A stretch of 64,000 nt of DNA, taken from positions 1 through 64,000 of the forward strand of contig LQXN01000055.1 in the NCBI GenBank assembly GCA_001648575.1, in the 5' to 3' direction. Shown here piece after piece: positions 8,717 to 62,884 of this stretch. The stretch is from Sutcliffiella horikoshii DSM 8719. Its GTDB lineage: Bacteria > Bacillota > Bacilli > Bacillales > Bacillaceae_I. The notes under the pieces were generated by a model, which had not been told where the DNA came from, did no database searches, and saw only the letters and a program-made list of their open reading frames with translations. The translations under genes and the position numbers were made by a program. Each line of letters begins with the position of its first letter. Position 1 is the first letter of the stretch.

Positions 8717-8935
8717 CAGTGTGTAGAAAAAGTTATTTTATCTTTGAGATATGCAAACCCATGTTGATCGTAGTGGAAGGCGCGCAGACTTCTGCGAGAG
8801 GAAGGGACAGGGAAGACCCCGCAGGGCGAAAGCCCGAGGAGGCTTCCGGACCGCCCGCGAAAAGCGAAGCGCCTGGAACGAAGATCAACAGCAGGATGCA
8901 AATTTAAAAGTATTTAGGGCTTTGTCAACAGTCTG
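8717..8935 (+). mobile_element. Terminator-associated non-coding element, copy A (219 bp, long subtype)
   Basis: It begins CAGTGTGTAG and ends GTCAACAGTCTG, imperfect terminal inverted repeats. The terminator hairpin is duplicated exactly on both sides. The GC-rich core (about 8762-8890) folds: GTTGATC/GATCAAC, GGCGC/GCGCC, GGAAG/CTTCC and GGGC/GCCC pairs are visible. Open frames across it are translations of the repeat and also occur in the other copies, so I do not call genes here. Confidence 0.85.
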
Positions 8936-8965
8936 GCACCTTCATTTAGAAGGTGCCAGAAAGAT

Positions 8966-9061
8966 TTATTGTTCATTTGATTTTTTAGCATGCTTTGGTT
9001 CGTTACGGCGTTTTCTACCTTGCTTTTTTTGTTGCTTTTCTACTTGATTTTGCTCCTTCAT
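8966..9061 (-). CDS. Small basic protein, 31 residues
   Basis: A 31-codon frame starts with ATG at 9061, 7 bases after TTGGAGGTG, a strong ribosome site. It is rich in Lys, Gln and Arg (QQKKQGRKRRNEPKHAKK). It is followed at once by the terminator hairpin that has been split by element copy A. It lies just downstream of the spore protein gene but behind its own ribosome site. I do not recognise a family. Its size and charge resemble many small sporulation-associated proteins, but that is only a guess. Confidence 0.6.
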   Translation of the reverse strand: MKEQNQVEKQQKKQGRKRRNEPKHAKKSNEQ

Positions 9062-9087
9062 TAAAAAACACCTCCAAGTTCCGAGAA

Positions 9088-9115
9088 TAAAAGAAAGGTG
9101 GGGTTTCCCCCACCT
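9088..9115 (-). terminator. Terminator after the spore protein gene
   Basis: The stem AGGTGGGG / CCCCCACCT with a three-base loop is followed on the minus strand by TTTCTTTTA, 18 bases past the stop codon. Confidence 0.8.
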
Positions 9116-9132
9116 CGTAGCCATTATATATA

Positions 9133-9339
9133 TTATTTTTGGTAACCGCCACCGAAGCTTTGTTCAGCCATTTGAACTAAGCGTTTAGTGATTTCTCCAC
9201 CAACGGAACCGTTAGCGCGAGCAGTTGCATCAGGACCAAGTTGAACTCCGAATTCAGAAGCGATTTCGTATTTCATTTGATCAAGAGCTTGTTGTACACC
9301 AGGTACAAGCAATTGATTTGAGCTGCTGTTGTTTGCCAT
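9133..9339 (-). CDS. sspA: Alpha/beta-type small acid-soluble spore protein
   Basis: DNA-binding protein of the dormant spore core that protects DNA and is cut by the Gpr protease at germination. The 68 residues show the family pattern: a Gln/Asn/Ser-rich start, the conserved segment [20 protein letters not shown] and the C-terminal [10 protein letters not shown] helix. The Gpr recognition region is the [10 protein letters not shown] stretch. An AGGAGGTG ribosome site lies just upstream, and a sigma-G-like promoter is visible. By location it matches sspA, but alpha/beta SASP paralogues are nearly interchangeable in sequence. Confidence 0.95.
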
Positions 9340-9362
9340 GTGTTTTCACCTCCTTGTGAATA

Positions 9363-9393
9363 TAGAATGTGTAAAAACACATGGCATCATTCA
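9363..9393 (-). promoter_or_regulatory. Sigma-G-like promoter of the spore protein gene
   Basis: On the minus strand TGAATG (9388-9393) and CATTCTA (9363-9369) are 18 bases apart, close to the forespore sigma-G consensus (TGAATA, CATACTA), and lie about 25 bases upstream of the start codon. This fits known forespore control of sspA-type genes. Confidence 0.7.
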
Positions 9394-9430
9394 TGTTTTA
9401 AAAATGGTAATTCTTCACAATGTGCAACTA

Positions 9431-10639
9431 TTAAAATAAATCATTGATAATACTGTCCTCTACTTTCTTTTTTCCTGATATATGCAATTTTTCGGTACGC
9501 TCCACTGCCTCTTCCACCATCTTATCAACATCAAAAAAGCTCTCATAGTAATTGATTTTTTCCTTTTTTGGCTTTGTCTTTGGCGCAGAAGGAGTGAAGA
9601 TGGTACAACAGTCCTCATAAGGCCTGTTGGATATTTCCAACGTATCAATCTTTCTTGCAATATCCATGATCTCGATTTTGTCCATGGTTATCAAGGGTCT
9701 AATGATAGGTGTGGAAGTGACCTCATTAATCGCTGACATACTCTGTAATGTTTGACTTGCTACCTGTCCAAGGCTCTCCCCTGTGATAATGGCAAGCCCT
9801 TGTTCTTTTTCACGGATTTTATCAGCAATCTTCAACATGAATCTCCTTGTAGAGGTCATGGTATAGTTTTCAGGCACCTGCTTTTGAATGGCAACCTGTA
9901 TTTCTGTAAATGGCACGATATGCAAATTGATTGAGTGGCCAAAGTGCGTAAGCCTTTCTGTAAGTTCCACCACTTTCTGTTTCGCACGTTCACTTGTATA
10001 AGGCGGGCTAAAGAAATGCACCACCTCCAGTGTAATTCCACGTTTCATGGACAAATAACCAGCTACAGGACTGTCAATGCCACCGGAAAGCATAAGCACC
10101 GCTGTGCCGCTTGTCCCGACAGGAAGCCCGCCTGCACCCTTAATATCTTTACAGGTAATATAGCTTGCTTCCTCCCTTACTTCCACTCTCACATTAATAT
10201 CAGGTTGTTTTACATTGACCGTTAAATCTTCTGTGTTTATCAATAGATGTGATCCGATCGCATGATTGAGACCATTTGTATCAAGCTCGAAATTCTTATA
10301 GGAACGTTTAGCCGTAACCTTGAATGTCTTCCCTTTATAAGGCAGTGCTTTAAGAGCAAACAAAGCCCCCTCTTTCATACTCTCGATTTCCGTTTTCGTT
10401 TTCACAGCCAGACTAAAAGACTGAATTCCAAAGATGCTTTGGAGGCGGTCTATAATCTGCTCATGCGGCTCGCCATTTAACTTGATGAACATTCTGTCTC
10501 TGCTCTTTTCAATCCGAACATCAGGAAAGTCTTTAATCTTTTCAAGAATATTAAAACTCAGACGTTGGACAAACTGCTTTCTGTTTCTTCCTTTGGTGGA
10601 CAATTCACCAAAGCGGATTAGTATATGATCATAATTCAT
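9431..10639 (-). CDS. thiI: tRNA 4-thiouridine synthase ThiI
   Basis: Adenylates and sulfurates uridine 8 of tRNA, with sulfur handed over by a cysteine desulfurase. It is 402 residues: an N-terminal ferredoxin-like region and THUMP domain (about 1-165), then a PP-loop ATPase with LSGGIDSPVAGY at about 184-195. It stops without the C-terminal rhodanese domain found in E. coli, the normal short Bacillus form. It starts 5 bases after the desulfurase stop codon, so the two are translationally close and work as a pair. Confidence 0.96.
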   Translation of the reverse strand: MNYDHILIRFGELSTKGRNRKQFVQRLSFNILEKIKDFPDVRIEKSRDRMFIKLNGEPHEQIIDRLQSIFGIQSFSLAVKTKTEIESMKEGALFALKALPYKGKTFKVTAKRSYKNFELDTNGLNHAIGSHLLINTEDLTVNVKQPDINVRVEVREEASYITCKDIKGAGGLPVGTSGTAVLMLSGGIDSPVAGYLSMKRGITLEVVHFFSPPYTSERAKQKVVELTERLTHFGHSINLHIVPFTEIQVAIQKQVPENYTMTSTRRFMLKIADKIREKEQGLAIITGESLGQVASQTLQSMSAINEVTSTPIIRPLITMDKIEIMDIARKIDTLEISNRPYEDCCTIFTPSAPKTKPKKEKINYYESFFDVDKMVEEAVERTEKLHISGKKKVEDSIINDLF

Positions 10640-10644
10640 GTTCT

Positions 10645-11781
10645 CTACCTCGTTACTTCTTTTATTGTAAAAATTGCATGATGCAGTTCGTTGAGGAAAG
10701 TTTGGAGTTCCGGTTTGGTGGTTTGATATGTCATACTGACTCTTATCGCACTTTCTGCCTTGGACCTCGAAACCCCCATTGCCATTAGTGTTTTACTTGG
10801 TGCTTTTCGTTTGGAAGAACAGGCGGAAGTCGTGGAGACGAATATTCCCTTCGTTCCTAGTGCATGCACCAACACTTCTGACTTGATCCCTGGCACAGAG
10901 AAATTGATGATGTGGGGAGCTGAATGCTGCTCCGGCGTATGCAAGAAAACACCATCCATTTTCATCAGTTCCTCCATGCAGAATTGTTTTAATGTCTCCA
11001 TTTGCAGTAGGCCCTGTTCACTTTTTTCAAGTGTCAATCTAAGTGCCTTGGTCATTGCGACGATTCCAGCTACATTCTCTGTTCCGGACCTAAGCGTCCA
11101 TTCCTGATTTCCTCCACTTAGGATAGGATGAAGTTTCACGCCATTCTTTGCAATCAGGATTCCATTTCCTTTCAGACCATGAAACTTATGGGCAGACAGG
11201 GAGCAAAGGTCGATGCTCTCCATATTTAATGGAACTTTGCCTATTCCTTGGATATGATCTACGTGAAATGTCACTTGGGGATAATCAGCAAGAAGTTGAC
11301 CGATTTCTTCCACAGGCTGCATGACTCCCGTTTCATTGTTTACATGCATGATGGAAACTAGAATCGTGTCCTTTCTGATAGCTTCCTCCACTTGCCCGGT
11401 TGTTATTTGTCCATCCTTATCTACCGGTAAAATAGTAACCGTGAACCCTTCTGCTTCTAGATCATTTATCGCATTAGTTACAGATGGGTGCTCGATTGCG
11501 GTTGTGATGATGTGGTTGCCAACAATCTTTTTGCTGAGTGCGCATCCTTTTATGGCAAGATTGTTACTCTCTGTTCCGCCAGATGTAAAAATAACTTCCT
11601 TATGGCTTACACTCAAAAGGGCAGCGATAGTTTCACGGGACCTGTGCAAAAGTTTCTCGGCCTCGCCACCCATAGAATGAATCGAGGACGGGTTCCCAAA
11701 GTAATTAGTAGAAACTGTCAGGAAAGAATCCAACACTTCTTTATATGGTTTTGTTGTTGCACTATTGTCTAAATAAATCAT
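10645..11781 (-). CDS. nifZ: Cysteine desulfurase (NifZ/IscS type) paired with ThiI
   Basis: PLP enzyme that takes sulfur from cysteine for tRNA thiolation. It is 378 residues from the ATG at 11781, chosen because GTGGAGGATG lies directly upstream and the protein then begins MIYLDNSATT like its relatives; an upstream in-frame start at 11820 lacks a ribosome site. The PLP lysine is Lys199 in SLSAHKFHG, and the catalytic cysteine is Cys321 in STTSACSSK. In B. subtilis the same pair is called nifZ-thiI. The IscS and NifS names are also used for this family. Confidence 0.94.
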   Translation of the reverse strand: MIYLDNSATTKPYKEVLDSFLTVSTNYFGNPSSIHSMGGEAEKLLHRSRETIAALLSVSHKEVIFTSGGTESNNLAIKGCALSKKIVGNHIITTAIEHPSVTNAINDLEAEGFTVTILPVDKDGQITTGQVEEAIRKDTILVSIMHVNNETGVMQPVEEIGQLLADYPQVTFHVDHIQGIGKVPLNMESIDLCSLSAHKFHGLKGNGILIAKNGVKLHPILSGGNQEWTLRSGTENVAGIVAMTKALRLTLEKSEQGLLQMETLKQFCMEELMKMDGVFLHTPEQHSAPHIINFSVPGIKSEVLVHALGTKGIFVSTTSACSSKRKAPSKTLMAMGVSRSKAESAIRVSMTYQTTKPELQTFLNELHHAIFTIKEVTR

Positions 11782-12159
11782 GTCATCCTCCACTTTTCCA
11801 TGAGGAATAGAATTCTTCAATATACATAGATAAATTTTTATTCTAAGCGAATATTAATGTTAGCATACTTTATATCCGTGGAAAAGATAAGCGTAGTTCA
11901 TCTTTGATAAAGGCTCTTTTCTCAAAGCTTGTTGCCATTCACTAGTAACCTTTAAATAGGCACGCAGTCTATTTCTTTCAGCAAGAAATTATAGGAAATC
12001 CACAATTTCTCCTTTCTAATCTTGTATAGACATGTTAAACTAATAAATGTTTTTCTAATATATCGAATTATTGAACTTTTAAGTTATTCGACAAATTTCA
12101 CCAAAATTATGATAGGATGAAAACGTATTCATTCATTTTCTCATCAGGAGGATCATTCA
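11782..12159. other. Intergenic region between the desulfurase and the transporter
   Basis: A 378-base gap between divergent genes. It contains one isolated end of the small GGCTCTTTTC element family (11907-11932, GGCTCTTTTCTCAAAGCTTGTTGCC) with no matching right end. AT-rich sequence follows with a weak promoter-like stretch near 12090-12115. I saw no T-box or other riboswitch here. Confidence 0.5.
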
Positions 12160-13492
12160 TGCAAAAAAAATATATACAAATAAGGATATTTTGGTATTGG
12201 GACTAATGCTTTTTGCCTTATTCCTTGGCGCAGGAAATATGATTTTCCCCCCTTTACTTGGACAGGCAGCCGGAGATAATGTCGGCGTGTCCGTCATTGG
12301 ATTCCTGATAACCGGAGTGGGATTACCGCTGCTAGGGGTAATGGCAATAGCGTACACTGGTGGAGATTTACAGACACTTGCCAATCGTGTAAACCCAATT
12401 TTCGGAATTATTTTTACTATCATTATGTATTTGGCAATCGGGCCATTTTTCGGCATCCCAAGAACTGGCACCGTTGCCTTTGAAATAGGAGCAACTCCAT
12501 TCATGCCGGAATCGGTAAACCCGCAAGGTTGGGCGTTGTTTCTTTTTACTGTTGTATTTTTTGCGATAACGTATTATTTAGCACTTAATCCTACAAAGCT
12601 TGTAGATAGGATAGGGAAAATATTGACTCCTATTTTATTGAGCGTTATAGGAATTCTTGTGGTGAAAAGTATTGTTACACCAATGGGGGGTATTGGAGCT
12701 CCAACGGAAAGTTACAGTAATTCCCCATTTTTTAAAGGGTTCCTTGAAGGATATCTGACGATGGATACCATTGCAGCTTTAGTTTTCGGAATTGTTGTAA
12801 TTTCTGCAATTAAAGATAAGGGGGTAACGGATAAAAAAACGATTACTTCCCTTTGCTTAAAGGCGGGCTTCATTGCCGCAACAGGTCTTACAATCGTCTA
12901 TGCAGGGCTTGCCTACCTTGGTGCAACAAGTCTTGATGCAATAGGGACAGCTGGAAACGGAGGCCAAATATTATCAGGGTCTGCGAACTTTCTATTTGGA
13001 TCAATCGGTGCAGTCATCCTTGGACTAGCCATCACTTTTGCTTGCTTGACTACATCTGTCGGGCTGGTTTCTGCAACAAGTAAATTCTTTTCTAAGATTA
13101 TGCCATCTGTTTCTTATAAAGTATTTGTAGCAATTCTGAGTGTTTTCAGTTTAATCGTATCAAATGTCGGTCTGGAGCAGTTGATTGCGTTCTCCCTACC
13201 AGTATTGATTATGATCTATCCATTGGCGATAGTATTGATTTTATTATCTTTCTATAGATGGAAAAATGAATCCTACGTTTATGGATTTGCTCTTCTTTTC
13301 ACTGGTGCCGTAAGCTTTGTGGACGGCTTGGCTATTGCAGAGATCCATATTACCTTCTTGCAGGATATCTTCAGTATTCTTCCATTATATAATGAAGGTG
13401 TAGGCTGGTTGGTACCTGCCATCATCGGTGCATTGATCGGAATGATCGTAGGTGCGCTGACTACGAAGCAATCGCATGAAAGCATTATTTAA
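12160..13492 (+). CDS. brnQ: Branched-chain amino acid:cation symporter, N-terminal frameshift
   Basis: Inner-membrane transporter for Leu, Ile and Val of the BrnQ/BraB family (LIVCS). About 440 residues with roughly twelve hydrophobic segments; the signature GLMLFALFLGAGNMIFPP sits at the start of helix 1. AGGAGG (12147-12152) positions translation at ATG 12160, but that frame stops after seven codons (MQKNIYK). Six A's instead of seven at 12164-12170 would join it to the main frame as MQKIYTNKDILVLGL. Otherwise the only open start is a TTG at 12191 with no ribosome site, losing part of the N-terminus. Either a homopolymer error or a real lesion. Confidence 0.88.
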
Positions 13493-13495
13493 ATA

Positions 13496-13678
13496 GGCTC
13501 TTTTCTCAAAGATTGTTGCTATTTATTTGTGAAAAGTCGGATATTGGACTTTTTACTGCTTTCATACTCTAAAAGGTGCAAGTATTTCTTAATTACAGCA
13601 GGGAAAAGAGCACGACAGTAAGAAAGATAACGGTTTATGTATCCATACGAAAAAGCAACAAAGTTTACGAAAAGAGCC
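13496..13678 (+). mobile_element. Small non-coding element, GGCTCTTTTC type, 183 bp
   Basis: Terminal inverted repeats: GGCTCTTTTC at the left and GAAAAGAGCC at the right, with a less perfect extension to GTTGC / GCAAC about 25 bases in. The 8-bp sequence TTTAAATA is present directly on both sides (13488-13495 and 13679-13686), a perfect target duplication, and the left copy includes the brnQ stop codon. No reading frame. Shorter or partial relatives lie at 5086-5190, 11907, 31576 and 61322-61461. Confidence 0.8.
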
Positions 13679-13689
13679 TTTAAATAAAA

Positions 13690-13730
13690 AACAGCCCGGA
13701 AAGTATTCTACTACTTTCCGGGCTGTTTTT
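13690..13730 (-). terminator. Terminator of the ezrA unit
   Basis: A near-perfect stem of AACAGCCCGGAAAGTA and its complement around a short loop, flanked by A-run and T-run so it may serve both the ezrA transcript and brnQ. Confidence 0.9.
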
Positions 13731-13737
13731 CTGCATT

Positions 13738-14046: not shown

Positions 14047-14050
14047 CTGT

Positions 14051-15742: not shown

Positions 15743-15983
15743 GCCTAGTCCCCTTCTACCCGGATGGTGTTATCCAATCTTCTATGTTTATAATAATTCG
15801 AATGAAAAAATCGCTATTCTTCCGTTGTAGCAATTATGTATTAAAAATGGGTGTATGGGTCGATATGTATATCTGCCCCATTTTATTTATATTTGAATGC
15901 TTTTATGATACCATGTAAACGACATTTTTTGACCAATATTTTTAAATTTTTTACATATTTCTTCTAGTATCGGAGGGTTTTTC

Positions 15984-16790: not shown

Positions 16791-16805
16791 GATTGTTGCT
16801 AGAGG

Positions 16806-18074: not shown

Positions 18075-18102
18075 AAAAAGCGCGTTCAGAGTACGGCGCT
18101 TT

Positions 18103-18311
18103 CAGTGTGCAGACAAAGCTTAAAATAGTGAAATTCCCTAGTTGATCGCAGTGGAAGGAGCGAAGACTCCCGCGGGAGGAAGGGACATGTAAGACCCCGC
18201 AGGCGAAGCCGAGGAGGCTTACGGACCGCCCGCAGGAAAGCGTAGCTCCTGCAACGGAGATTAACTGTTCCAACCAATAACTTATCTGCTAGATAGTTTG
18301 TCAACAGTCTG
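18103..18311 (+). mobile_element. Terminator-associated non-coding element, copy B (209 bp, short subtype)
   Basis: Begins CAGTGTGCAGACAAAG and ends TTTGTCAACAGTCTG. The flanks are two copies of the ytsP terminator hairpin (AAAGCGC ... GGCGCTTT) at 18077-18102 and 18312-18338, differing by one indel and one substitution. Only the distal copy has the T-run. Compared with copy A, stems have changed in a compensatory way (GGAGC/GCTCC instead of GGCGC/GCGCC, GTAAG/CTTAC instead of GGAAG/CTTCC). Confidence 0.85.
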
Positions 18312-18346
18312 AAAGCGCCGTTCAGAGCACGGCGCTTTTTCTTTAT
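18312..18346 (+). terminator. Distal, T-tailed copy of the ytsP terminator
   Basis: The stem AAAGCGCCG / CGGCGCTTT is followed by TTTCTTTATTT. It serves ytsP through the inserted element, and the hairpin can also act for the lyase gene ending at 18349. Confidence 0.8.
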
Positions 18347-18348
18347 TT

Positions 18349-22328: not shown

Positions 22329-22334
22329 AGCCTT

Positions 22335-24435: not shown

Positions 24436-24822
24436 TTAATCGATATTTACTCTACTTTGTTGTGCGGAATAATAAGTGTTTATTCGCGTTTTATCAATTG
24501 ATTGTAGAGTATGAATCCTCGTTCGGTCACGGTTGCCGTTCATGATTGTAGTACCACTAGTTAAGTCGTCAAGACCGATAGCATGTGCTAGTTCGTGTAC
24601 CCCTGTACTTTTTGCCACAGTGGAATTCCCTGTTAAATTCTTATTTCCAACATTTAACATAACGGTAAATTCAACTAATATACCATTTGATACTCTATTG
24701 TATTGAATTCTTCCATAATTGGTACTACTTACTTCATTATAAGTATTTAATATTCTTTTTGTCGGTGAACTAGCCAAGGAGAATCGAACAAGGCGCAGTT
24801 TTATATCCAGCATCCACCACAA
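24436..24822 (-). pseudogene. Decapitated metzincin zinc protease fused to IS sequence
   Basis: The catalytic part of a small secreted-type metalloprotease. HELAHAIGLDD gives the zinc motif HExxHxxGxxD, followed by a Met-turn in GTTIMNGNRD, as in matrixin-like enzymes. About 105 residues (from SPTKRILNTYNEV on) look genuine. The first 19 codons of the open frame are the IS1182 transposase gene read in another frame. Signal peptide, propeptide and the N-terminal half are gone, so this is a deletion or insertion product. The reading frame survives, but a secreted active enzyme is unlikely. Confidence 0.75.
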
Positions 24823-25630
24823 CAGCTGTGGGCTTTCCTACTTTCTCTTTTACTTCATTCACGAGGGATTCTAGCATGCGGCTATCATGAACATTGGCTC
24901 CTGTAACTTGAGTGGCAAGAATAAAACCTTTGGAATCACAAGCTGTGTGAAAGGAATAAGCAAACTGTTTTTCCCGTTCATCTTTTACATAATAACCACT
25001 TTCCGGATCCGTAGTGCTCACTTTAATTTGTTTTGTTTCAGTCTTTGTCTGAGGGGTGAAGGGCTTTTTTCCATGGCTACCCTGTCTTCATTTATTTCCT
25101 TATCTAATTGTTCCTGGTAACACCTTGTTTCCACATTGACGACTTCTTTAGTGAATTTCTTTTTATTGGCGTTGGCTTTCACTTGAGTCGAATCAATAAA
25201 AGCTACAGAGGGATCAACGAACCCTTTTTTCATCGCTTCATTTAAGATGTGGTAGAAGATGCTTTCGAAGATTTCTGTATCTTTGAACCGGCGGATGTAG
25301 TTCTTACCGAAGGTAGAAAAATGAGGGATTGGTTGATCAAAGTCAAAACCTAAAAACCAACGGTACGCCACATTGGTTTCTATTTCTCTGATCGTTTGTC
25401 GCATAGATCGAATTCCAAAAAAATACTGAATGAACACCATCTTAATAGACAACAGGGTCGATGCTTGGCCGCCCATTGTCCATAGAATATTTATCTTCCA
25501 CCAAATCATAAATAAAGTTAAAGTCTAAGGCTTTTTCAATTTTACGTACAAGGTGGTTCTCAGGCACAATTTGATCAAGAGCTATCATAGAAACTTGATA
25601 GCGTCCTTCCATTGATTGTTTCGATAACAT
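24785..25630 (-). pseudogene. IS1182-family transposase, frameshifted and truncated
   Basis: Three frames together give the N-terminal two thirds of an IS1182-type DDE transposase: the start MLSKQSMEGRYQVSMIAL behind GAGGGGTG, then KMVFIQYFFGIRSMRQTI, then STTDPESGYYVKDEREKQ and VVVDAGYKT. The first break is near 25445-25455. The second falls at a six-A run near 25064-25069, where one more A restores KKPFTPQTKTETK. The C-terminal third, with the last catalytic acid, is absent. It cannot supply active transposase. Confidence 0.85.
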
Positions 25631-25719
25631 CTTTAACACCCCTCAAACAGACATACTTAATTTATTCAACAAAAAAAGCCTGTAGACCTGCCTAGTAACT
25701 AGACTTTGTCTACAAGCTG
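24785..25719 (-). mobile_element. IS1182-type insertion sequence, truncated
   Basis: The right boundary is clear: the element ends CTTTGTCTACAAGCTG at 25719 and the next base starts a perfect terminator hairpin (25720-25743) with a T-run. Read outward, the end is CAGCTTGTAGACAAAG, matching the terminal repeat of the small terminator-associated elements (CAGTGTGTAGACAAAG) at 14 of 16 positions. The left end is missing; at about 24785 the sequence changes into the protease gene. The transposase inside is broken. Confidence 0.8.
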
Positions 25720-25750
25720 ACAGGACGGAATTTACCGTCCTGTTTTTTTA
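25720..25750 (+). terminator. Terminator hairpin abutting the IS end
   Basis: ACAGGACGG / CCGTCCTGT with a six-base loop and a T-run on the plus strand. It begins on the base after the IS end. For the GNAT gene on the minus strand the hairpin now runs into IS sequence instead of its own T-run. Confidence 0.8.
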
Positions 25751-26621: not shown

Positions 26622-28045
<1,424 letters not shown>

Positions 28046-28070: not shown

Positions 28071-28330
28071 AAAAACCCATCCCTTCTATAAAAGAAGGGA
28101 CGAGTTTATACGCGGTACCACCCTAATTGAAAAGCAGACAAAAATGCTTTCCCACTCAAAAATGTAACGGTTCTCACCGTCTTTAACTACTAAGCCAAAG
28201 CATGGCCGTTCCCAAAAGATGCTCGAGGAGGTAATTCATCCAAACAGGTGTACTGATTTTCACCAACCATCAGCTCTCTTTAAGCATGCCTATTTGTACT
28301 ACTTATTCCTGTCTTAGCGCATTCTATAAT
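28071..28330 (-). promoter_or_regulatory. Tyrosyl T-box riboswitch with terminator
   Basis: On the minus strand the T-box sequence AGGGTGGTACCGCG (28111-28124) is followed by a terminator stem CCCTTCTTTTATAGAAGGG and a T-run (about 28071-28099). Stem I begins near 28325, and a TAC tyrosine codon in GAATTACC is the candidate specifier. Uncharged tRNA-Tyr is expected to stabilise the antiterminator and turn tyrS on. Confidence 0.92.
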
Positions 28331-31560: not shown

Positions 31561-31597
31561 AAATTCATCTTCAAAAATCTTTGAGAAAAAAGCCTTA

Positions 31598-33316
31598 TTA
31601 ATCTTCCATTGTGGACAAATCACCAGTTGGCAGATCAAGCTCCCACGCTTTCAATACGCGACGCATGATTTTCCCGCTACGAGTCTTTGGAAGCTTATCA
31701 CGGAATTCGATTTCACGCGGTGCCGCATGTGCAGCAAGGCCTCGTTTAACAAATTGGCGGATTTCCTCTTTCAGCTCGTCGCTTGCAGTGTGTCCATCAC
31801 GAAGCGCTACAAACGCTTTGATGATTTCGCCGCGCACCGGGTCAGGCTTTCCGATTACTCCAGCCTCTGCTACTGCAGGATGCTCGACAAGCTTGCTTTC
31901 CACTTCAAATGGTCCTACACGTTCACCGGATGTCATGATAACATCATCGATACGGCCTTGGAACCAGAAGTAGCCTTCTTCATCCATATATGCGGAGTCC
32001 CCTGAAACATACCAGTCTCCAGGCATGAAGTAGGATTCATATTTCTCTTTGTTGTTCCAAATGGTGTGCATCATGGATGGCCAGCCCTTCTTGATGGCAA
32101 GGTTCCCCATGCGATATGGCGGCAATTCATTCCCTTGATCGTCAACAATCGCAGCTTCTACACCGGGGATCGGTTTCCCCATGGAACCTGGCTTGATTTC
32201 CAATGACGGATAGTTACAAATAAGCTGTGCACCTGTTTCCGTCATCCACCATGTATCATGAACACGGAGGTTGAAGACTTTCACTCCCCAGCGAATGACT
32301 TCGGGGTTCAATGGCTCCCCGACACTCAGAATATGGCGAAGTGAGGAAAGATCATATTTCTTTACTACTTCATCCCCTGCTCCCATTAGCATACGGAATG
32401 CTGTTGGTGCACTATACCATACTGATACGCCGTAATCCTCGATTGTTTCATACCATGCTTCCGGTCTGAAACGGCCGCCGACAATGACATTCGATGCACC
32501 GACAAGCCACGGACCGAAGATTCCGTATGCTGTGCCTGTCACCCAACCAGGATCTGCTGTACACCAGTATACATCTTCTTCCTTCAGGTCAAGTACCCAT
32601 TTTGCCGTCTGATAATGCTGCACCATCGCATTATGCACATGCAGCACGCCCTTTGGCTTCCCTGTGGATCCACTTGTATAGTGAAGGACCAATCCGTCAG
32701 TCTTTTCCACCCATTCCACTTGAAGCTTTTTACTCGCCTCTTTCATACGGGAAAGGAAGTCCACAAAAGGACCTTCTTCTTTAACATCTTCCCCGACAAG
32801 AACCACATGCTTTAATGCAGGGAGGTCATCAAGAGGAATTCTTTTTAGAAGTTCAGGAGTCGTGATGATCACTTTTGCTTCACTATCTTCCAGGCGATCT
32901 TTTACAGCGCCTTCCATGAATGCTTCAAATAGCGGCCCGACGATTGCACCTAGCTTGATGGCCCCTAGGGCGGCAAAATATAATTCCGGTGAGCGCGGCA
33001 TAAAGATGAAGACACGGTCTCCCTTTTCCACATCACACGTCTGTTTTAGAATATTTCCCGCTTTGTTGGACATCTCTTTCATTTCCTTGAACGTATATTT
33101 CTCATCACGCTCCGGATCTCGGTAATATAGTGCGACTTTATTTTTCCGTGCAGAATCTGCATGGCGGTCAATTGCTTCGTATGCTACATTAACTCTTCCT
33201 GTTTCAGCAAAACTGAAGTTTTTTTCCACCTCTGACCAATCAAAATTATGATAGGTTTGTTCATAGTCTTCTAGATTGTAGTTTCCCTTCGTCACTGGTA
33301 ACGCTTCCACTTTCAT
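31598..33316 (-). CDS. acsA: Acetyl-CoA synthetase (AMP-forming)
   Basis: Converts acetate, ATP and CoA to acetyl-CoA for growth on acetate or overflow products. It is 572 residues, the same as the B. subtilis enzyme. Motifs: HYTSGSTGKPKGVLH near 216, WMTETGA near 362, the hinge GRIDDVIMTSGERVGP and the C-terminal PKTRSGKIMRR, whose lysine is the known acetylation site in this family. The start is ATG 33316 (AGGGGTG seven bases upstream) rather than the in-frame TTG at 33322. Divergent from acuABC, whose products acetylate and deacetylate it. Confidence 0.96.
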   Translation of the reverse strand: MKVEALPVTKGNYNLEDYEQTYHNFDWSEVEKNFSFAETGRVNVAYEAIDRHADSARKNKVALYYRDPERDEKYTFKEMKEMSNKAGNILKQTCDVEKGDRVFIFMPRSPELYFAALGAIKLGAIVGPLFEAFMEGAVKDRLEDSEAKVIITTPELLKRIPLDDLPALKHVVLVGEDVKEEGPFVDFLSRMKEASKKLQVEWVEKTDGLVLHYTSGSTGKPKGVLHVHNAMVQHYQTAKWVLDLKEEDVYWCTADPGWVTGTAYGIFGPWLVGASNVIVGGRFRPEAWYETIEDYGVSVWYSAPTAFRMLMGAGDEVVKKYDLSSLRHILSVGEPLNPEVIRWGVKVFNLRVHDTWWMTETGAQLICNYPSLEIKPGSMGKPIPGVEAAIVDDQGNELPPYRMGNLAIKKGWPSMMHTIWNNKEKYESYFMPGDWYVSGDSAYMDEEGYFWFQGRIDDVIMTSGERVGPFEVESKLVEHPAVAEAGVIGKPDPVRGEIIKAFVALRDGHTASDELKEEIRQFVKRGLAAHAAPREIEFRDKLPKTRSGKIMRRVLKAWELDLPTGDLSTMED

Positions 33317-39146: not shown

Positions 39147-39343
39147 CATTGTGTAGACAAAGCTTAAAATAATGAAATTCCCTAGTTGATTGCAGTGGAA
39201 GGCGCGTAGACTCCCGCACAAGTAAGACTCCCAAGCGTTGTGAAGAGGCTTACGTACCGCCCGCAGGAAAGCGAAGAGCCTGTAACGAAGATCAAACTGT
39301 TCCAACAGATAACCTAATTAATTTATAGTTTATCAACAGTCTG
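39147..39343 (+). mobile_element. Terminator-associated non-coding element, copy D (197 bp, degenerate)
   Basis: Begins CATTGTGTAGACAAAG and ends TATCAACAGTCTG, with the short-subtype interior carrying deletions and substitutions in the core. The left flank has a hairpin-like TATATCTCTGTAAAAGATATA; the right flank (ATACTCTTTGC) is no longer a clear duplicate. The oldest-looking copy in the window. Confidence 0.75.
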
Positions 39344-42869: not shown

Positions 42870-42901
42870 AAAACGAACGTGCAATTAATGCACGTTCGTT
42901 T
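42870..42901 (+). terminator. Proximal copy of a duplicated terminator hairpin
   Basis: AACGAACGTGCA / TGCACGTTCGTT stem after the FtsA-like gene. The second copy with the T-run is at 43111-43147, beyond element copy E. Confidence 0.8.
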
Positions 42902-43110
42902 CAGTGTGTAGCCAGAACCTTAGAATAATAAAATTCCCTAGTTGATCGCAGTGGAAGGAGCGAAGACTCCCGCGGGAGGAAGGGACATGTAAGACCCCGC
43001 AGGCGTAGCCGAGGAGGCTTACGGACCGCCCGCAGGAAAGCGTAGCTCCTGCAAAGAAGATCAACTGTTCCAACTGATAACTTAACTTGTTTATAGTTTG
43101 TCAACAGTCT
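42902..43110 (+). mobile_element. Terminator-associated non-coding element, copy E (209 bp, short subtype)
   Basis: Begins CAGTGTGTAGCCAGAA and ends TTTGTCAACAGTCT. About 32 bp of terminator sequence is duplicated on both sides (ACGAACGTGCA ... TGCACGTTCGT), with loop bases differing. The outer core stem reads AGTTGATC/GATCAACT, against TGTTGATC/GATCAACA in copies A and F, a compensatory change. The right hairpin copy overlaps the ytxJ stop codon. Confidence 0.85.
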
Positions 43111-43142
43111 AAAACGAACGTGCAAATGAATGCACGTTCGTT

Positions 43143-43469
43143 TTATTTTACATTTTCCTGTAATGAAGAATAAGTGATCTTCCAATGGGATGCATTCCAC
43201 ACGACTTTTCCATCCTTAAACAATAAAGCCTGAGGCGACTCATGCTTCACAGCTGTAGATTCGGCTATATGACTTGAAAGCGGTCGGGCTTCTTGTACAT
43301 TTAAATAAAAGCAAGGAACCTGATCCTGATCAGCAACATAGTTTTCAAACTCTTCAAATGCGGCATGGCTGATCGGGCAGGTTGTACTGTTTTTGAAAAA
43401 TAGGAACGTTTTATTGTCATTGAGGATTTGATCAAATTCTTCAACAGTTTGTATCATTGTCTTATCCAT
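43143..43469 (-). CDS. ytxJ: YtxJ, monothiol bacilliredoxin-like protein
   Basis: A 108-residue thioredoxin-fold protein of the DUF2847/YtxJ type. The single active-site cysteine is in STTCPISHAAF near residue 30, the monothiol form proposed to act with bacillithiol in removing mixed disulfides. AGAAGGGTG precedes the ATG. It is downstream of ytxH but separated by a strong terminator (43505-43538), so part of the ytxGHJ message probably ends before it. Its stop codon lies in the T-run of the duplicated terminator. Confidence 0.9.
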   Translation of the reverse strand: MDKTMIQTVEEFDQILNDNKTFLFFKNSTTCPISHAAFEEFENYVADQDQVPCFYLNVQEARPLSSHIAESTAVKHESPQALLFKDGKVVWNASHWKITYSSLQENVK

Positions 43470-44760: not shown

Positions 44761-45876
44761 ATGAAAGATCCTCGGATTCAAACACTGGCAAAAAATCTGA
44801 TCAATTACTCTGTGCGTCTTCAAAAAGGCGAAAAAGTGTTAATTGAAAACTTCGGTCTGCAAAGAGAACTGGTCATTGCGCTTGTAGAGGAAGCATACAA
44901 AGCAGGCGGCTACCCTTTCGTTTCCTTAAAGGACGTTCAAGTCGACCGTGCACTATTAATGGGTGCACAAGATGAACAGTTTAACATGAAAGCCGATTTC
45001 GAAGCAAATGTCATGAAGAACATGGATGCATATATCGGGCTTCGTTCTGGCGACAACATAGCTGAACTATCCGATGTACCAGATGACAAGCAAAAAATCC
45101 AAGGCAGCACAGTTGGAAAGAAAGTACACCGTGATATCCGAGTACCAAAAACCAAATGGGTTGTCTTGCGCTATCCGAATGCAAGCATGGCCCAGTTAGC
45201 TAAAATGAGCACAGAAGGTTTTGAAAACTTCTACTTTGATGTATGTAACCTGGATTATGGGAAAATGAGCAATGCCATGGATGCTTTAGTTGAGCTGATG
45301 AATAAAACGGACAAAGTCCGAATCACGGGAGAAGGGACAGACCTCACTTTCTCCATTAAAGATATCCCAGCGATAAAATGTGCAGGCGAAATGAATATCC
45401 CTGACGGAGAGGTTTATACAGCTCCAGTGAAAGACTCTGTGAATGGTACGATAACTTATAATACTCCATCTCCTTACCAAGGGTTCACATATGAAAATGT
45501 GAAATTGACATTCCGCGATGGAAAAATTGTAGAAGCAACAGCAAATGATTCTGAACGTATCAACAAGATTTTCGATACAGACGAAGGAGCTCGATATGTC
45601 GGAGAATTTGCAATCGGGGTTAATCCGTATATCCAACATCCGATGCAGGATATCCTGTTTGATGAAAAAATTGACGGAAGCTTCCACTTCACTCCTGGCC
45701 AGGCATATGAAGATGCATGGAACGGGAACAATTCCGACATCCACTGGGACATGGTCATGATTCAGCGCCCTGAATATGGCGGAGGCGAAATCTACTTTGA
45801 TGATGTATTGATCAGAAAAGATGGTAAGTTCGTCGTTACAGAACTTGAAGGGTTGAATCCAGAGAATTTGAAGTAA
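44761..45876 (+). CDS. Aminopeptidase, family M29
   Basis: A cobalt/zinc-type leucyl aminopeptidase of the AmpS/M29 family, 371 residues, slightly shorter than the roughly 410 of AmpS. Family metal-site segments are visible: GEMNIPDGEVYTAP (near 216), GEFAIGVNP (near 280) and SDIHWDMVM (near 327). The N-terminal KVLIENFGLQRELVIALVEE region is typical. It probably acts on peptides in the cytoplasm, with no signal peptide. TTAGGGGGCC precedes the ATG. It ends in a terminator split by element copy F. Confidence 0.88.
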   Translation: MKDPRIQTLAKNLINYSVRLQKGEKVLIENFGLQRELVIALVEEAYKAGGYPFVSLKDVQVDRALLMGAQDEQFNMKADFEANVMKNMDAYIGLRSGDNIAELSDVPDDKQKIQGSTVGKKVHRDIRVPKTKWVVLRYPNASMAQLAKMSTEGFENFYFDVCNLDYGKMSNAMDALVELMNKTDKVRITGEGTDLTFSIKDIPAIKCAGEMNIPDGEVYTAPVKDSVNGTITYNTPSPYQGFTYENVKLTFRDGKIVEATANDSERINKIFDTDEGARYVGEFAIGVNPYIQHPMQDILFDEKIDGSFHFTPGQAYEDAWNGNNSDIHWDMVMIQRPEYGGGEIYFDDVLIRKDGKFVVTELEGLNPENLK

Positions 45877-45924
45877 GCTTGTGATAGAAGAGCGAGTCAT
45901 CCACAGTGAGAAGTGTGGATGTCC

Positions 45925-46144
45925 CAGTGTGTAGACAAAATTGTTTTATCTGGGAGATATGCAAAACCTGTGTTGATCGTAGTGGAAGGCGCGCAGACTT
46001 CTGCGGGAGGAAGGGACAAGGAAGACCCCGCAGGGCGTAAGCCCGAGGAGGCTTCCGGACCGCCCGCGAAAAGCGAAGCGCCTGGAACGAAGATCAACAT
46101 CAGGATGCAAATTTAAAAATATTTAGGGCTTTGTCAACAGTCTG
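45925..46144 (+). mobile_element. Terminator-associated non-coding element, copy F (220 bp, long subtype)
   Basis: Begins CAGTGTGTAGACAAAA and ends TTTGTCAACAGTCTG, and is nearly identical to copies A and G. The flanks are two copies of the aminopeptidase terminator (CATCCACAGTGAGA..GTGTGGATG) at about 45895-45924 and 46145-46175, differing in the loop. Only the distal copy has the T-run. Confidence 0.87.
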
Positions 46145-46182
46145 AGCCATCCACAGTGAGAATTGTGGATGGCTTTTTGTAA
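46145..46182 (+). terminator. Distal, T-tailed copy of the aminopeptidase terminator
   Basis: AGCCATCCACA / TGTGGATGGCT stem followed by TTTTTG. The 100 bases beyond it, up to the murC terminator, hold nothing I can identify. Confidence 0.8.
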
Positions 46183-57656: not shown

Positions 57657-57667
57657 GTAGAAATTGA

Positions 57668-57709
57668 AAAGGCAGGCAATCACGGAAACGTGATTGCCTG
57701 CCTTTTTGT
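57668..57709 (+). terminator. Terminator after the protease gene
   Basis: AAAGGCAGGCAATCACG paired with its complement around GAAA, followed by TTTTTG. Convergent with ytpP. Confidence 0.95.
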
Positions 57710-57717
57710 ATAATACG

Positions 57718-58032
57718 TCAACCTAACGAACCAACAAACGCTTCGATTTCTTCCTGGGTTTTGCGGTCCTTACTTACGAAACGACCTGCTTCTTCCCCAT
57801 TTTTATATCCAACAAAACTTGGAATTCCAAATACACTCAGCTCTGCACAGAGATCAATGAATTCGTCCCTGTCGACGTAAATAAACGTGTATTGATTGAA
57901 CTTTTCCATGATTGCAGGTAGAACCGGCTCAATCACACGGCAGTCAGGGCACCAGTCCGCAGAAAACATAAATACGACATCTGTTTCATTTTTCAATTGA
58001 TTGAATTGCTCTAAGGATTGTAGCTTTTCCAT
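57718..58032 (-). CDS. ytpP: YtpP, thioredoxin-like protein
   Basis: A 104-residue thioredoxin fold with active site SADWCPDCRVI (Cys-Pro-Asp-Cys) near residue 30 and the cis-proline loop FGIPSFV near 75. A small cytoplasmic disulfide reductase; the partner is unknown. ATG 58032 is placed six bases after GGAGGGTG; upstream in-frame starts overlap that site. It lies five bases after the EIIC-like gene and is surely cotranscribed with it. Confidence 0.9.
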   Translation of the reverse strand: MEKLQSLEQFNQLKNETDVVFMFSADWCPDCRVIEPVLPAIMEKFNQYTFIYVDRDEFIDLCAELSVFGIPSFVGYKNGEEAGRFVSKDRKTQEEIEAFVGSLG

Positions 58033-58037
58033 AAACA

Positions 58038-59063: not shown

Positions 59064-59170
59064 TTCTTTTTATATTTTCTGAATAATTTACATTAATAAT
59101 AGCGAATATTGGCCGATATATACTAGTAGCTATTTCAGCTTTTGTAAAAGTTTGTTCTAGGGGGGGTACC

Positions 59171-61318
59171 ATGAAAACAATAAGAGGCAGAGTAAGGTTT
59201 ATATTAATGGCAGCTATTACAGGACTCATCATTGTTTTATTATTCAATTTCTTTTTCTACTTTACTCAATCCACTGCAAAAGAGCAAGAATCCGCTTTGT
59301 TTGAAGCAGTTAATGGAAGTAAAGAAATAAAATTTGCATTTTCCGATACTCGGAAAAATGAGCAAGAGTTTTTGAGGATTCCTAGTGATGAAACATCCGT
59401 CACCATTAAGGAAAACTTGGAGAACATTCAAAAAGATGCAGCTGAAATGCAACAGCAATTTGCTGATTATGAGGAAATCACCAGCCGTTTTTCCCAAATC
59501 GAAACGGCTGCAACAAATTATTTGAATGAATTTGTTCCACTTGAAGGGTTATATAAAGAAATAGGTTTTACTGAGTTCACAGGTTTACAAGGGGATATGA
59601 ACGGTGCTGTCAGAAACCTTGTGATCAATGTACGGGGTGCAAACCGGGAGGAACTGAATACCACATTGATGAATATGAGGCTTTATGAACAACAATATCT
59701 CGCTACCAAACAGGAAGCAAGATACAGGGATTTCATGAAGAGTTCAGAAACTTTCAAAACGCAATTGGCAGAAACGGAACTTCCTGATTCCCAAAAGAAC
59801 GGGTTAATGGAGCTTTATAACCCATACGTACAAGCAATGACGGATCTATATAATAATTACACCGCTTCCTATGGCTTCGTAAGGAACTTTGAGACGATAA
59901 GCAATGAAGTAGAGGCAAGTGTTAATGAAGTTGAAGCAGCAGTGACCAGTTTGCAAGCACAGCTTCAAGAAGAATCAAATGGAAAACTTCAGACAATCAT
60001 GTTGCTAACCTTGATTATCAGTGTACTGTTATTGCTATTTTTAAGCACGACAGGATATTTCCTGAACCGCAAAATTGCCTCTTCCATCAGATCTTTAAAG
60101 GACGGGGCATCCAAGATTGGAGAAGGAAATTTCGCGTACCGGGTTCCAATCACAACTAAAGATGAAATGGCCGACCTTGCCTTGACATTTAATGCAATGG
60201 CCGAGAAAGTACAAGTCTCTCTATTAAAAGTCATGGAAGCTACCGACAAGCTCCAGTCTTCTTCTCAGAACCTTGCAGCAATTTCCGAAGAGACGACTGC
60301 CCAGTCTACAGAAGTTAATGAAGCGATAAAACAAGTAGCCATCGGTTCTAGTGAACAAGCATTACACCTTGATGAAAGTACGGACATCCTTAAAAGAGTA
60401 AAAGCCGCTGTCGAACAGGCAAACAACTTGAGTTCGGAGATCAAATCAAAAGCGGATCACGCAAGAGTGGTTGGAGAAGACGGTCTGACAGTCGTAAAGG
60501 ACTTGCACAAGTCATCCGAACAGTTCTTGGAGCTTGCCAATCATCTGACAGAGCGAGTACAACAGGCTACAAAACAATCGCAGCAAATTCATACCATTGT
60601 CGCAACCATACAAGAAATCGCTGAGAACACTGACTTGTTGGCACTTAATGCGGCTATAGAATCGGCTCGTGCCGGAGAAGCAGGAAGAGGTTTTGCCGTT
60701 GTTGCCCAAGAGGTCCGAAAGCTAGCTGAACGCTCTAAACACGAGGCGCTATCAATTAAAAAGCTAGTGACCGAAATGGGGAATCAAATGAGTAAACTAT
60801 CCAATGATGCCCTGCAGTTCAACGAATACAGAGATCTCCAGCAGCACTCTGTCGATCAAACAAAAACATCCTTTGAAAAGATTGCAGGAAACGTCCTTGA
60901 GATCAATCATAAGGTAGATGATGTCCAGCAAGCTATTGTACAAGTTACAAGCTCCAATAAACAGTTGGAAGAAAAACTTTCAGAAGTACATTACATTTCA
61001 GAAGAAGCTGCGGCCACCTCAGAACAGGTCAGCGCTTCTAGTGAACATCAAATTGTTGCAATAGAGCAGGTAAATGAAGCGGCAATATCTCTCTCCGATA
61101 TCGCAACAGAACTACAAGAGGAGGTAAGTCAGTTCATCGTGGAAGAGGAAATCACGGAGGCTAATGAGCAGACATCTGAAGCTCAAAATTTGACGGATTT
61201 TATTGAAGCCGATGAGGAGACAGTACTTGATGAAGAAGAGCCCGAAGCTGGTTTTGCTCATAAGGAAGTAGCTGCAGGCATGGAAGAAGCAGCTTCCGCA
61301 GAACAAGAAAATAAATAA
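59171..61318 (+). CDS. Methyl-accepting chemotaxis protein
   Basis: A 715-residue transmembrane chemoreceptor: TM1 about 11-32, an extracytoplasmic helical sensor (about 33-275), TM2 about 276-297, HAMP (about 298-352) and a cytoplasmic coiled coil. The conserved CheA/CheW-binding tip is [20 protein letters not shown] near 482-501. Gln/Glu-rich methylation helices flank it. The C-terminus is a long acidic tail ([16 protein letters not shown]). GGGGGG precedes the ATG. Ligand unknown. Divergent from the EIIC-like gene, with a 107-base gap. Confidence 0.92.
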
Positions 61319-61321
61319 TAA

Positions 61322-61461
61322 GGCTCTTTCCTGATATGAAAATACGAAAATAGTCTATAAAAAAAGAAAACCAGTTTGTCCGAAAAAAATAGGATAAGCT
61401 GGTTTTCATTAATTAACAGAAGTTATTCATTAAAAAAGGCTGCATCTTTGAGAAAAGAGCT
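61322..61461 (+). repeat. Divergent GGCTCTTTTC-family element
   Basis: It starts GGCTCTTTCCTG and ends CTTTGAGAAAAGAGCT, recognisable ends of the small element at 13496, but the interior differs and contains an AAAACCAG / CTGGTTTT stem that may terminate the receptor gene. No target duplication is visible. Possibly a composite or decayed copy. Confidence 0.5.
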
Positions 61462-61514
61462 TTAAAAAAAGAATACAACAGGACCTTTCCCCCATCATTT
61501 TCTTCTTGCCGTTC

Positions 61515-62042
61515 CTATTTAATTTTTACAGAAGAAACAACTTCCATCATGCTTTTGGTACTGTTCTCCATGTTTTTAGTATCAGTTACAGTGGTCATCT
61601 TCACTCCGCCTACACCGACTGTCACCTCATAAAACTCTTCCTCTTCCCCTTCAACCGGAGAAATTAGCATATAACCTAGACGTCCGTCTTCTGTGACCGT
61701 ATGATCAAGTTCCAACTTTTCATAGTTTACCTTGGTAGAATCATACAAAACCTCGGAATCTTTTGGCTCAAATGGATTTACAAATAACAGATAGGTTTGT
61801 TCTTTATGTGTAAGTACAACGTTGTTTTCGGTTTCTGTGTCAACTGCAAACTGTGAGGGAAGATGATAATTAAACGCCTCTGTCTCCTCTGCTGCTTCCA
61901 TTTCTTCAGCTTCAAAAGACTGCTCAAAAGCTTCAATGGATTTTTGTGTGGCATCTTCGATAGAGATCGAGCATCCTGCTAATATAAACAATGATATAAA
62001 TAAAATAGAAACTATGGCTCTTCCAAAATACAATATTTCCAC
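61515..62042 (-). CDS. Putative lipoprotein of unknown function
   Basis: A 175-residue protein with a lipoprotein signal (hydrophobic segment and lipobox LAGC near residue 24). The mature part starts with a Glu-rich helix (EAEEMEAAEETEAF), then a beta-rich domain of about 110 residues. I recognise no family. An AGGAGT-type site lies upstream (AAAAGGAGTGG). Likely an outer-leaflet membrane protein. Confidence 0.78.
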   Translation of the reverse strand: MEILYFGRAIVSILFISLFILAGCSISIEDATQKSIEAFEQSFEAEEMEAAEETEAFNYHLPSQFAVDTETENNVVLTHKEQTYLLFVNPFEPKDSEVLYDSTKVNYEKLELDHTVTEDGRLGYMLISPVEGEEEEFYEVTVGVGGVKMTTVTDTKNMENSTKSMMEVVSSVKIK

Positions 62043-62202
62043 TCCTTTTAGTACTAAAAGACTATGAAATTCACACTTCTTCTATAATACCTATAATTCC
62101 TTCCCGATGACAAGGATAAGTTGGAATTATCACTTAATTCCCTTATTTATGATAGACTATTTAATAGATAAATAACAAGAGGTACTATTTGGAGGGATTG
62201 TC

Positions 62203-62643
62203 ATGAAATTTACTGTTTACCTTGCTGGAGAAATTCATACTGACTGGAGAGAAGAGTTGAAGGACAAAGCAAAGGCGTTGGATCTCCCCTTGGAGTTTGT
62301 CGGACCAATGACAGATCATGAACGGTCAGATAACATCGGAGAATTAGTAATGGGGACCCAGCCAAACTCGATTGCAAAAGATGAGGCAGCGTCGCAAGTC
62401 AACAATCTGCGGACTCAGCTTCTAATGAAAAAGTCAGATGTTGTCATAGCTTTGTTTGGTGAAAAGTATAAACAGTGGAACACCGCGATGGATGCAAGTG
62501 CTGCTATCAGTCTTCAAAAACCACTTATATTGATCCGCCCAGAAAGCCTTCATCATCCGTTAAAAGAGCTATCGAATAAAGCAAATATAACCGTGGAAAC
62601 TGTGAATCAGGCATTAAAAGTACTTACGTACGTACTCGATTAG
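62203..62643 (+). CDS. ytoQ: YtoQ family protein
   Basis: A 146-residue protein of the YtoQ family, distantly related to nucleoside 2-deoxyribosyltransferases. It begins FTVYLAGEIHTDWREEL, with conserved segments FVGPMTDHERSDNIGE and DVVIALFGEKYKQWNTAMDA. TTGGAGGG precedes the ATG. Biological substrate unknown. Its terminator hairpin has been duplicated around element copy G and also overlaps the 3' end of the convergent DUF84 gene. Confidence 0.92.
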   Translation: MKFTVYLAGEIHTDWREELKDKAKALDLPLEFVGPMTDHERSDNIGELVMGTQPNSIAKDEAASQVNNLRTQLLMKKSDVVIALFGEKYKQWNTAMDASAAISLQKPLILIRPESLHHPLKELSNKANITVETVNQALKVLTYVLD

Positions 62644-62644
62644 A

Positions 62645-62665
62645 AGCAGGCAATCAACCCTGCTT
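62645..62665 (+). terminator. Proximal copy of the ytoQ terminator hairpin
   Basis: AGCAGGCAATCAACCCTGCT stem without a T-run. The T-tailed copy is at 62886-62912, beyond element copy G. Confidence 0.75.
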
Positions 62666-62884
62666 CAGACTGTTGACAAAGCCCTAAATATTTTTAAATT
62701 TGCATCCTGCTGTTGATCTTCGTTCCAGGCGCTTCGCTTTTCACGGGCGGTCCGGAAGCCTCCTCGGGCTTACGCCCTGCGGGGTCTTCCCTGTCCCTTC
62801 CTCCCGCAGAAGTCTGCGCGCCTTCCACTACGATCAACACAGGTATTGCATATCTCAAAGAAAAAATACTTTGTCTACACACTG
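62666..62884 (-). mobile_element. Terminator-associated non-coding element, copy G (219 bp, long subtype)
   Basis: In reverse orientation it starts CAGACTGTTGACAAAG and ends TTTGTCTACACACTG. The perfect 20-bp hairpin AGCAGGCAATCAACCCTGCT is on both sides. Core and subtype are the same as copies A and F. The right-hand hairpin copy still encodes the last codons and stop of the DUF84 gene (stop at 62895-62897), so insertion with duplication kept both neighbours intact. Confidence 0.88.

Follow-up and report, generated by a model that had tools for sequence, protein, structure and literature searches.

The small repeated elements at gene ends in a 64,000-nucleotide stretch of Sutcliffiella horikoshii DSM 8719 (assembly GCA_001648575.1, contig LQXN01000055.1, positions 1 to 64,000 of the forward strand; hereafter the window) are most probably (probability about 0.85) non-autonomous miniature inverted-repeat transposable elements (MITEs) moved in trans by a DDE transposase of the IS1182 family, which would join the element to the 5' feet of a palindrome, repair then doubling the hairpin. 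In five of them (copies A, B, E, F and G) the same stem-loop stands on either side of the element, and direct reading and measurement of the copies agreed with the coordinates and end sequences given for them in an initial annotation of the window. Copy A (8717-8935, plus strand, type II, 219 bp) stands between hairpin copies of 21 bp at 8696-8716 and 8936-8956. Copy B (18103-18311, plus strand, type I, 209 bp) has a left hairpin copy of 26 bp (18077-18102), one base shorter than the right copy of 27 bp (18312-18338), which is followed by a T-run. Copy E (42902-43111, plus strand, type I, 210 bp) is flanked by copies of 31 bp (42871-42901) and 32 bp (43112-43143), copy F (45925-46144, plus strand, type II, 220 bp) by two of 30 bp (45895-45924 and 46145-46174, the latter followed by a T-run), and copy G (62666-62884, minus strand, type II, 219 bp) by two of 22 bp (62644-62665 and 62885-62906, the latter again followed by a T-run). 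Copy D (39147-39343, plus strand, 197 bp) is decayed, as had been stated, and no recognisable second hairpin copy was found in its flanks. With up to three mismatches allowed, the window contains 12 instances of the left-end motif, where 1.85 would be expected and 100 shuffles gave at most 6. Perfect hairpins in the window are intergenic in 15 of 17 cases, and 8 of them flank the elements described here.

The six elements of the initial annotation understated the family. In the genome of the strain (G000, a draft of 4.68 Mb in 67 contigs) 193 left-type and 193 right-type ends were counted with up to two mismatches (reversed patterns 5 and 9), which suggests about 190 MITE copies in this member of the S. 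horikoshii group. The elements are 151-440 bp long, carry terminal inverted repeats like those of an insertion sequence (IS) and have no transposase gene. From this genome 105 loci were parsed, giving 100 distinct end-bounded copies; 60 of the loci came from two similarity searches (30 each), 25 from other listed matches and copies A and D, and 20 were taken from the end lists with no prior look at their flanks (15 by both ends, 5 by one end). A duplicated flanking stretch scoring at least 13 was present in 95 of the 100 copies, with a length of 18-39 bp (median 26), whereas none of 300 mismatched flank pairs reached that score (maximum 10.5). The five copies below the threshold (L130 in its second pairing, L143, L148, which is copy D, L160 and L167) were left out; L161, with a score of 13.0, was kept among the 95 and barely folds.

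The duplicated stretch is a hairpin, and its sequence varies from site to site. It is centred exactly on the symmetry of the hairpin in 80 of the 95 sites, with a 10-bp stem as the commonest geometry (36/95) and loops of 3-10. Folding at -7 kcal/mol or below was obtained for 93 of the 95 stretches, compared with 4.0% of 3000 length-matched random stretches of the window. The earlier claim that the length of the duplication follows the hairpin was borne out by a correlation of 0.91 with twice the stem plus the loop, a value that arises partly by construction because the fold is that of the duplicated stretch itself. Four tandem MITE pairs share a common middle hairpin (L021, L037, L043 and L155).

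Orthologous sites without the element were compared for copies E and F. At site E only one hairpin, and no element with IS1182-type ends, was present in eight of nine loci of the Sutcliffiella group (L169-L176, L177 being the exception). At site F, six of nine loci (L169-L174) have a single homologous hairpin and the other three no recognisable homologue; the end motif was absent within 470 bases of the stop codon in all nine. At these two sites, relatives without the element thus carry one hairpin where the strain carries two, in keeping with the duplication first proposed. In two of the relatives at site E (L170 and L175) a core-like repeat of another kind adjoins the hairpin.

Most of the MITEs lie behind genes. 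A gene 3' end faces 88 of the 95 copies, at a median of 37 nt from stop codon to element edge (neighbouring genes being taken as open frames of 80 aa or longer lying within 900 bp), and the surrounding frames are convergent in 38 cases, co-directional in 37 and divergent in 3, with a neighbour not found on one or both sides in the remaining 17. With 95 of 100 parsed copies between duplicated hairpins and 88 of those 95 at gene 3' ends, the refuting condition named in the initial annotation, that most copies lie outside terminators, did not hold. Beyond the duplicated stretch, 82 of the 95 sites have a T-run or A-run (at least 5 in 8) on at least one side, 22 of them on both. The initial annotation had placed the T-run on the gene-distal hairpin only; the outer hairpin does keep it, but geometry alone accounts for this, the T-run being no part of the duplicated palindrome, and the orientation of the element relative to the terminator is near even (T-rich on the right in 41, A-rich on the left in 37, equal in 17; n = 95). 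To judge from this layout, the inner hairpin, which runs into the CAG end of the element, should no longer terminate, and transcription would proceed through the MITE to the outer hairpin, placing the element within the 3' untranslated region (UTR). The outer hairpin with its T-run would still terminate, and the insertion would be nearly neutral in both directions.

A related autonomous element has similar ends and the same kind of target. A truncated and decayed IS1182-family element, not included in the initial annotation, lies in the window at 24792-25719 (minus strand; profile match and end motif), with an intact end CAGCTTGTAGACAAA at 25705-25719 that adjoins a terminator hairpin at 25720-25743, followed by a T-run. 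Elsewhere in the same genome a pseudogene (G000:C4:393188-394685, NF033551 profile) with the ends CAGCTTGTAGACAAA / CAGACCGTAGACAAA is flanked by two copies of one terminator hairpin; decayed copies in this genome score below the NF033551 cut-off. An intact copy was found in a relative (G007), on S. horikoshii plasmid pBH-BAT-167 (NZ_CP082921.1), where it is 1513 bp long, has the ends CAGCTTGTAGACAAA / CAGACCGTAGACAAA, contains a single frame of 449 residues (NCBI annotation 'IS1182 family transposase') and is flanked by a duplicated hairpin of 30 bp. IS1182-family elements range from about 1.3 to 2.0 kb in size. The transposase (P0001) scores 477 bits against NF033551 (IS1182; cut-off 270) and matches Pfam DDE_Tnp_1_6 and DUF772; this score and the single frame between short, imperfect terminal inverted repeats assign the element to the IS1182 family. 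Four acidic residues, D151, D254, D278 and E405 in P0001 numbering (alignment positions 141, 244, 268 and 395 of a row trimmed by 10), are kept in all 67 aligned rows, and the catalytic residues are presumably among them. The ends of the MITEs differ from CAGCTTGTAGACAAA / CAGACCGTAGACAAA at 2 of 15 bases each; three MITE copies (L011, L014 and L015) have CAGCTTGTAGAC at one end. The initial annotation had proposed a mobile element that recognises and copies terminator hairpins: the family does select and duplicate them, but the MITE itself has no transposase, and the recognising protein would be the IS1182-family enzyme acting in trans.

The same behaviour was followed through the IS relatives in overlapping samples of the family, order and class (18, 397 and 398 genomes) and in plasmids, from which 97 IS loci, part of the matches, were read. 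Duplication of a whole hairpin, of 19-47 bp, was found in 49 distinct full-length relatives, some of which have stop codons in their frames; they include copies in Enterococcus faecium (L339) and on a Klebsiella plasmid (L340). The target duplication of the IS is thus the same as that of the MITEs, a whole hairpin in 95 of 100 MITEs and in these 49 IS copies. Among the 47 copies summarised (the 49 minus L250 and L296), 46 duplications were exactly symmetric, 45 had identical hairpin copies and 39 an adjoining T-run or A-run. The first labelling of the 97 loci, in which the ends were picked partly by the repeat itself, gave 48 hairpin, 4 short-7 and 45 unlabelled loci; the 49 distinct copies are these 48 with L250 and L296 moved in and L345, which repeats L249, taken out. 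In a control the ends were set by the terminal motif alone, and the 97 loci were reduced to 62 by removal of 18 with a short transposase match, 14 without ends and 3 from the same place. Of these 62, 47 showed a whole-hairpin duplication, 3 a 7-bp duplication and 12 none. Seven of the 12 (L292, L300, L307, L308, L316, L334 and L338) have stable but differing hairpins at their two ends, probably the trace of recombination between copies. In L266 and L290, the two that the motif rule did not recover, a whole hairpin is duplicated at a farther end when the ends are guided by the repeat; the last three (L270, L280 and L314) have decayed or lie at the edge of a contig.

The proposed mechanism is as follows. 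The core repeat of the MITE, carried between IS1182-family ends, would be moved by the DDE transposase supplied in trans. The enzyme would choose a palindrome, in practice a rho-independent terminator, and, apart from favouring A at the joint, would read no target sequence. On each strand it would join a 3' end of the element to the palindrome's 5' foot, and gap repair would then copy the whole stretch between the joints, leaving a hairpin on both sides of the element. The target may be an extruded cruciform, at whose four-way junction the two 5' feet would be adjacent whatever the length of the arms; a duplication that varies between 18 and 47 bp cannot be explained by a fixed stagger set by the protein. 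The two resulting hairpins could be targeted again, as the four tandem pairs would reflect. This mechanism corresponds to pathway b of a model (Fig 13 of PMC5678879, in the available part of that paper) which was drawn as a possibility in a report of hairpin replacement by IS1272, and in which the whole stem-loop is duplicated if the element joins the 5' feet. Extended to the clade, the proposal is that a group of DDE transposases targets the four-way junction of an extruded palindrome at two adjacent 5' phosphates, that the stagger (18 to 47 bp) is set by the fold of the target and not by the protein, and that insertion repairs the site while doubling the number of targets, with one clade inside the group making a fixed 7-bp cut; this wider proposal is given even odds.

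Several observations weigh against the reading of the MITEs as passengers of a hairpin-joining IS1182 transposase. No intact copy of the IS was seen in the draft genome of the strain among matches at E <= 1e-60, and for this reason the helper is deduced from ends and behaviour. In the IS survey 18 of the 97 loci had too short a transposase match and 14 had no ends under the motif rule. The hairpin pair is identical in only 36 of the 95 MITE sites, the others having drifted. Base pairing can run at least one pair past the duplicated stretch in 62 of 95 sites, so that the joint is close to the base of the longest stem that could form but does not always coincide with it. The duplicated stretch has A as its first base in 82 of 95 sites and T as its last in 81, which means that structure is not all that is recognised. 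Finally, a perfect 7-bp duplication was found in 21 of 30 loci (L346-L375) of relatives in three genomes (G659, G754 and G526), so that not every relative within the family duplicates hairpins.

The transposases of these fixed-7 relatives are 39-42% identical to the Sutcliffiella protein, and the elements have CAGACTGTTGAGAAA-like ends. In the tree the four fixed-7 rows come together as a single clade (100/100) within an 11-row group (97/91) that also holds five hairpin rows; the exact neighbour of the clade is ambiguous, and rooting relied on three distant rows with long branches. On this tree the hairpin label takes 13 changes, because the 12 unresolved rows are interspersed with the hairpin rows. 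Two alignment positions (P0001 numbering) distinguish the two types: residue 253 is H in 48 of 48 hairpin rows and N in 5 of 5 fixed-7 rows, and residue 370 is K in 46 of 48 hairpin rows and R in 5 of 5 fixed-7 rows. The 7-bp duplications were also considered as duplicated hairpin loops ('pathway c' in the available part of PMC5678879), which was not supported: the arms pair at 9.0 of 14 positions on average, compared with 7.9 (standard deviation 2.2) for mismatched pairs. Since this is barely above the mismatched pairs and the fixed-7 sites of the three genomes have a common palindromic consensus, independent hairpins are not established at these sites.

The drift of the hairpin copies, identical in no more than the 36 of 95 MITE sites given above, would also suit a MITE that had inserted between two terminators already present, tandem or bidirectional, with no duplication at all, and double hairpins at gene ends exist in principle. 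This is nevertheless extremely improbable, given the single hairpin in empty orthologues at E (8 of 9 loci) and at F, the identical hairpin copies in 45 of 47 IS copies and a hairpin sequence that differs between sites. It is very improbable, too, that insertion is random or merely AT-directed and that selection retains the copies in terminators: terminators are safe sites on which selection must also act, and AT-rich flanks are usual for MITEs, but selection cannot make a duplication equal to a dyad-centred palindrome at lengths of 18 to 47 bp, and the related fixed-7 clade is evidence that surviving copies can look otherwise. Mobilisation by some different transposase, with ends resembling those of the IS1182 relative through old ancestry or chance, would account for the lack of an intact helper in the draft assembly and for the two mismatches in 15 positions that separate each MITE end from that of the Sutcliffiella IS; the similarity extends to both ends and is coupled to the same unusual target behaviour, which makes this explanation improbable.

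A more serious alternative, though still an unlikely one, is that the transposase sees a structure linked to transcription (a nascent RNA hairpin, a paused polymerase or a single-stranded hairpin on the lagging strand) and not a DNA cruciform. Almost all targets are at gene 3' ends (88/95), and a T-run is present on one or the other strand in 82 of 95; against this, the orientation of the element relative to the terminator is near even (41 vs 37), and the joints are symmetric on both strands, which fits a two-fold symmetric, double-stranded target. Perfect hairpins are rare outside gene ends (in the window 15 of 17 are intergenic), so a preference for terminators and a preference for palindromes are indistinguishable. 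Fragments at contig edges were considered as a possible intact helper and rejected; they belong to another multi-copy IS (C67:28445-29743 type) that is 22% identical to the Sutcliffiella transposase. This other IS sits at several contig ends (L061, L065, L066, L068, L069, L072 and L073) and probably breaks the assembly.

Among known systems, the IS200/IS605 elements (HUH enzymes, single-strand transposition) have no terminal inverted repeats and produce no target duplication. The elements described here have both inverted terminal repeats and a target duplication, and DDE models match the related transposase. Targeting of terminator hairpins by members of the IS1182 family is already in print (PMC3098183, PMC4923244 and PMC5678879, as far as their available text goes). 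For ISCbo5 / ISBma2 of Clostridium (IS1182 family), the accessible part of PMC3098183 (2011) reports that all insertion sites but one were hairpin-forming inverted repeats at gene ends, which its authors took as transcription stop signals, the sites being intergenic and genes avoided. These elements resemble the MITEs and the Sutcliffiella IS in family and in hairpin targets at gene ends; unlike the MITEs they are autonomous, with 12 to 27 chromosomal copies in the table of that paper, whose accessible text says nothing on duplication of the entire hairpin. IS1272 and TnSha1 of Staphylococcus, of the same family, also use hairpin targets, several of them terminators confirmed by RNA-seq, without a target sequence consensus (PMC4923244 and PMC5678879, 2016-17, available parts). 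They delete or replace the hairpin with no target duplication, whereas the MITEs keep and double it; the hairpin stands on both sides in 95 of 100 MITEs, which is not the inverted-repeat replacement of IS1272. The full-length ISEfa7-like elements of Enterococcus faecium (IS1182 family) share 58-59% identity with the Sutcliffiella protein in their transposase. On plasmid NZ_CP014530.1 a relative (L339) has a duplicated hairpin of 47 bp, like the Sutcliffiella elements, whereas the copy annotated as ISEfa7 on NZ_CP027498.1 (L338) has two different hairpins at its ends. ISPpu9 likewise inserts in a palindromic repeat, but in one repeated sequence (REP) and not in any hairpin (PMC8450116, available part). 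ISfinder is quoted in the available part of PMC7335449 as listing IS1182 repeats of 2-60 bp, and that of PMC12056078 describes both the target duplication and the target structure of IS1182 elements as variable. In the literature searched, which left subscription journals mostly outside, there was no description of such a MITE and none of a clade-wide measured whole-hairpin duplication. The MITE family, the whole-hairpin duplication measured across the clade and the contrast with the fixed 7-bp clade appear to be new.

The interior of the MITEs is a 127-bp core (GTTGAT...ATCAAC), found for example on the plus strand at 45972-46098 within copy F, which also occurs elsewhere without IS1182-type ends. 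The core was matched in 76 of 199 genomes sampled from the order, and among 55 core loci read (some from the same place) 12 had IS1182-type ends, 11 of them in this genus. As the core is widespread in the order and IS1182 ends accompany it in few cases, the MITE is an IS1182-ended carrier of a widespread repeat, and the core may be cargo common to several element types. Core copies without IS1182-type ends are seen in the window at 27988-28018 and at loci L100-L123 and L377-L402, and inverted ends of another kind (GGCTCTGTTAT) bound at least one of them (L380).

Other DDE transposases are not known to take the length of their duplication from the structure of the target. If the proposed mechanism is true, target structure can dictate the length of a target-site duplication, and the pair of related clades (whole hairpin vs 7 bp) would offer a way to find the part of the protein that reads structure. 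Landing behind a gene while apparently leaving a working terminator would explain some 190 copies in a compact genome. Annotators would also have to consider that a 3' UTR may hide a mobile element between two copies of one terminator hairpin.

The MITE together with its hairpins folds very stably (z -7.7 for copy F and -4.3 for copy B), which is no evidence of an RNA function because palindromes and inverted ends alone give such stability. A known Rfam RNA was ruled out, the MITEs having no Rfam match; at gathering score the T-box family was the only one found in the window, as a leader at 28093-28324 (minus strand, RF00230, 136.8 bits). An aminopeptidase gene occupies 44761-45876, with best protein matches of 97-98% in Sutcliffiella horikoshii and near relatives. 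A degenerate tandem repeat of about 20 bp with overlapping units lies at 797-1067 (9 overlapping 70-nt matches). A second dispersed repeat family, AATCTTTGAGAAAAGAGCC / GGCTCTTTTCTCAAAGATT, occurs in both orientations at 5074-5193, 11899-11946, 13483-13690, 31566-31601 and 61433-61472, and is perhaps another MITE-like element.

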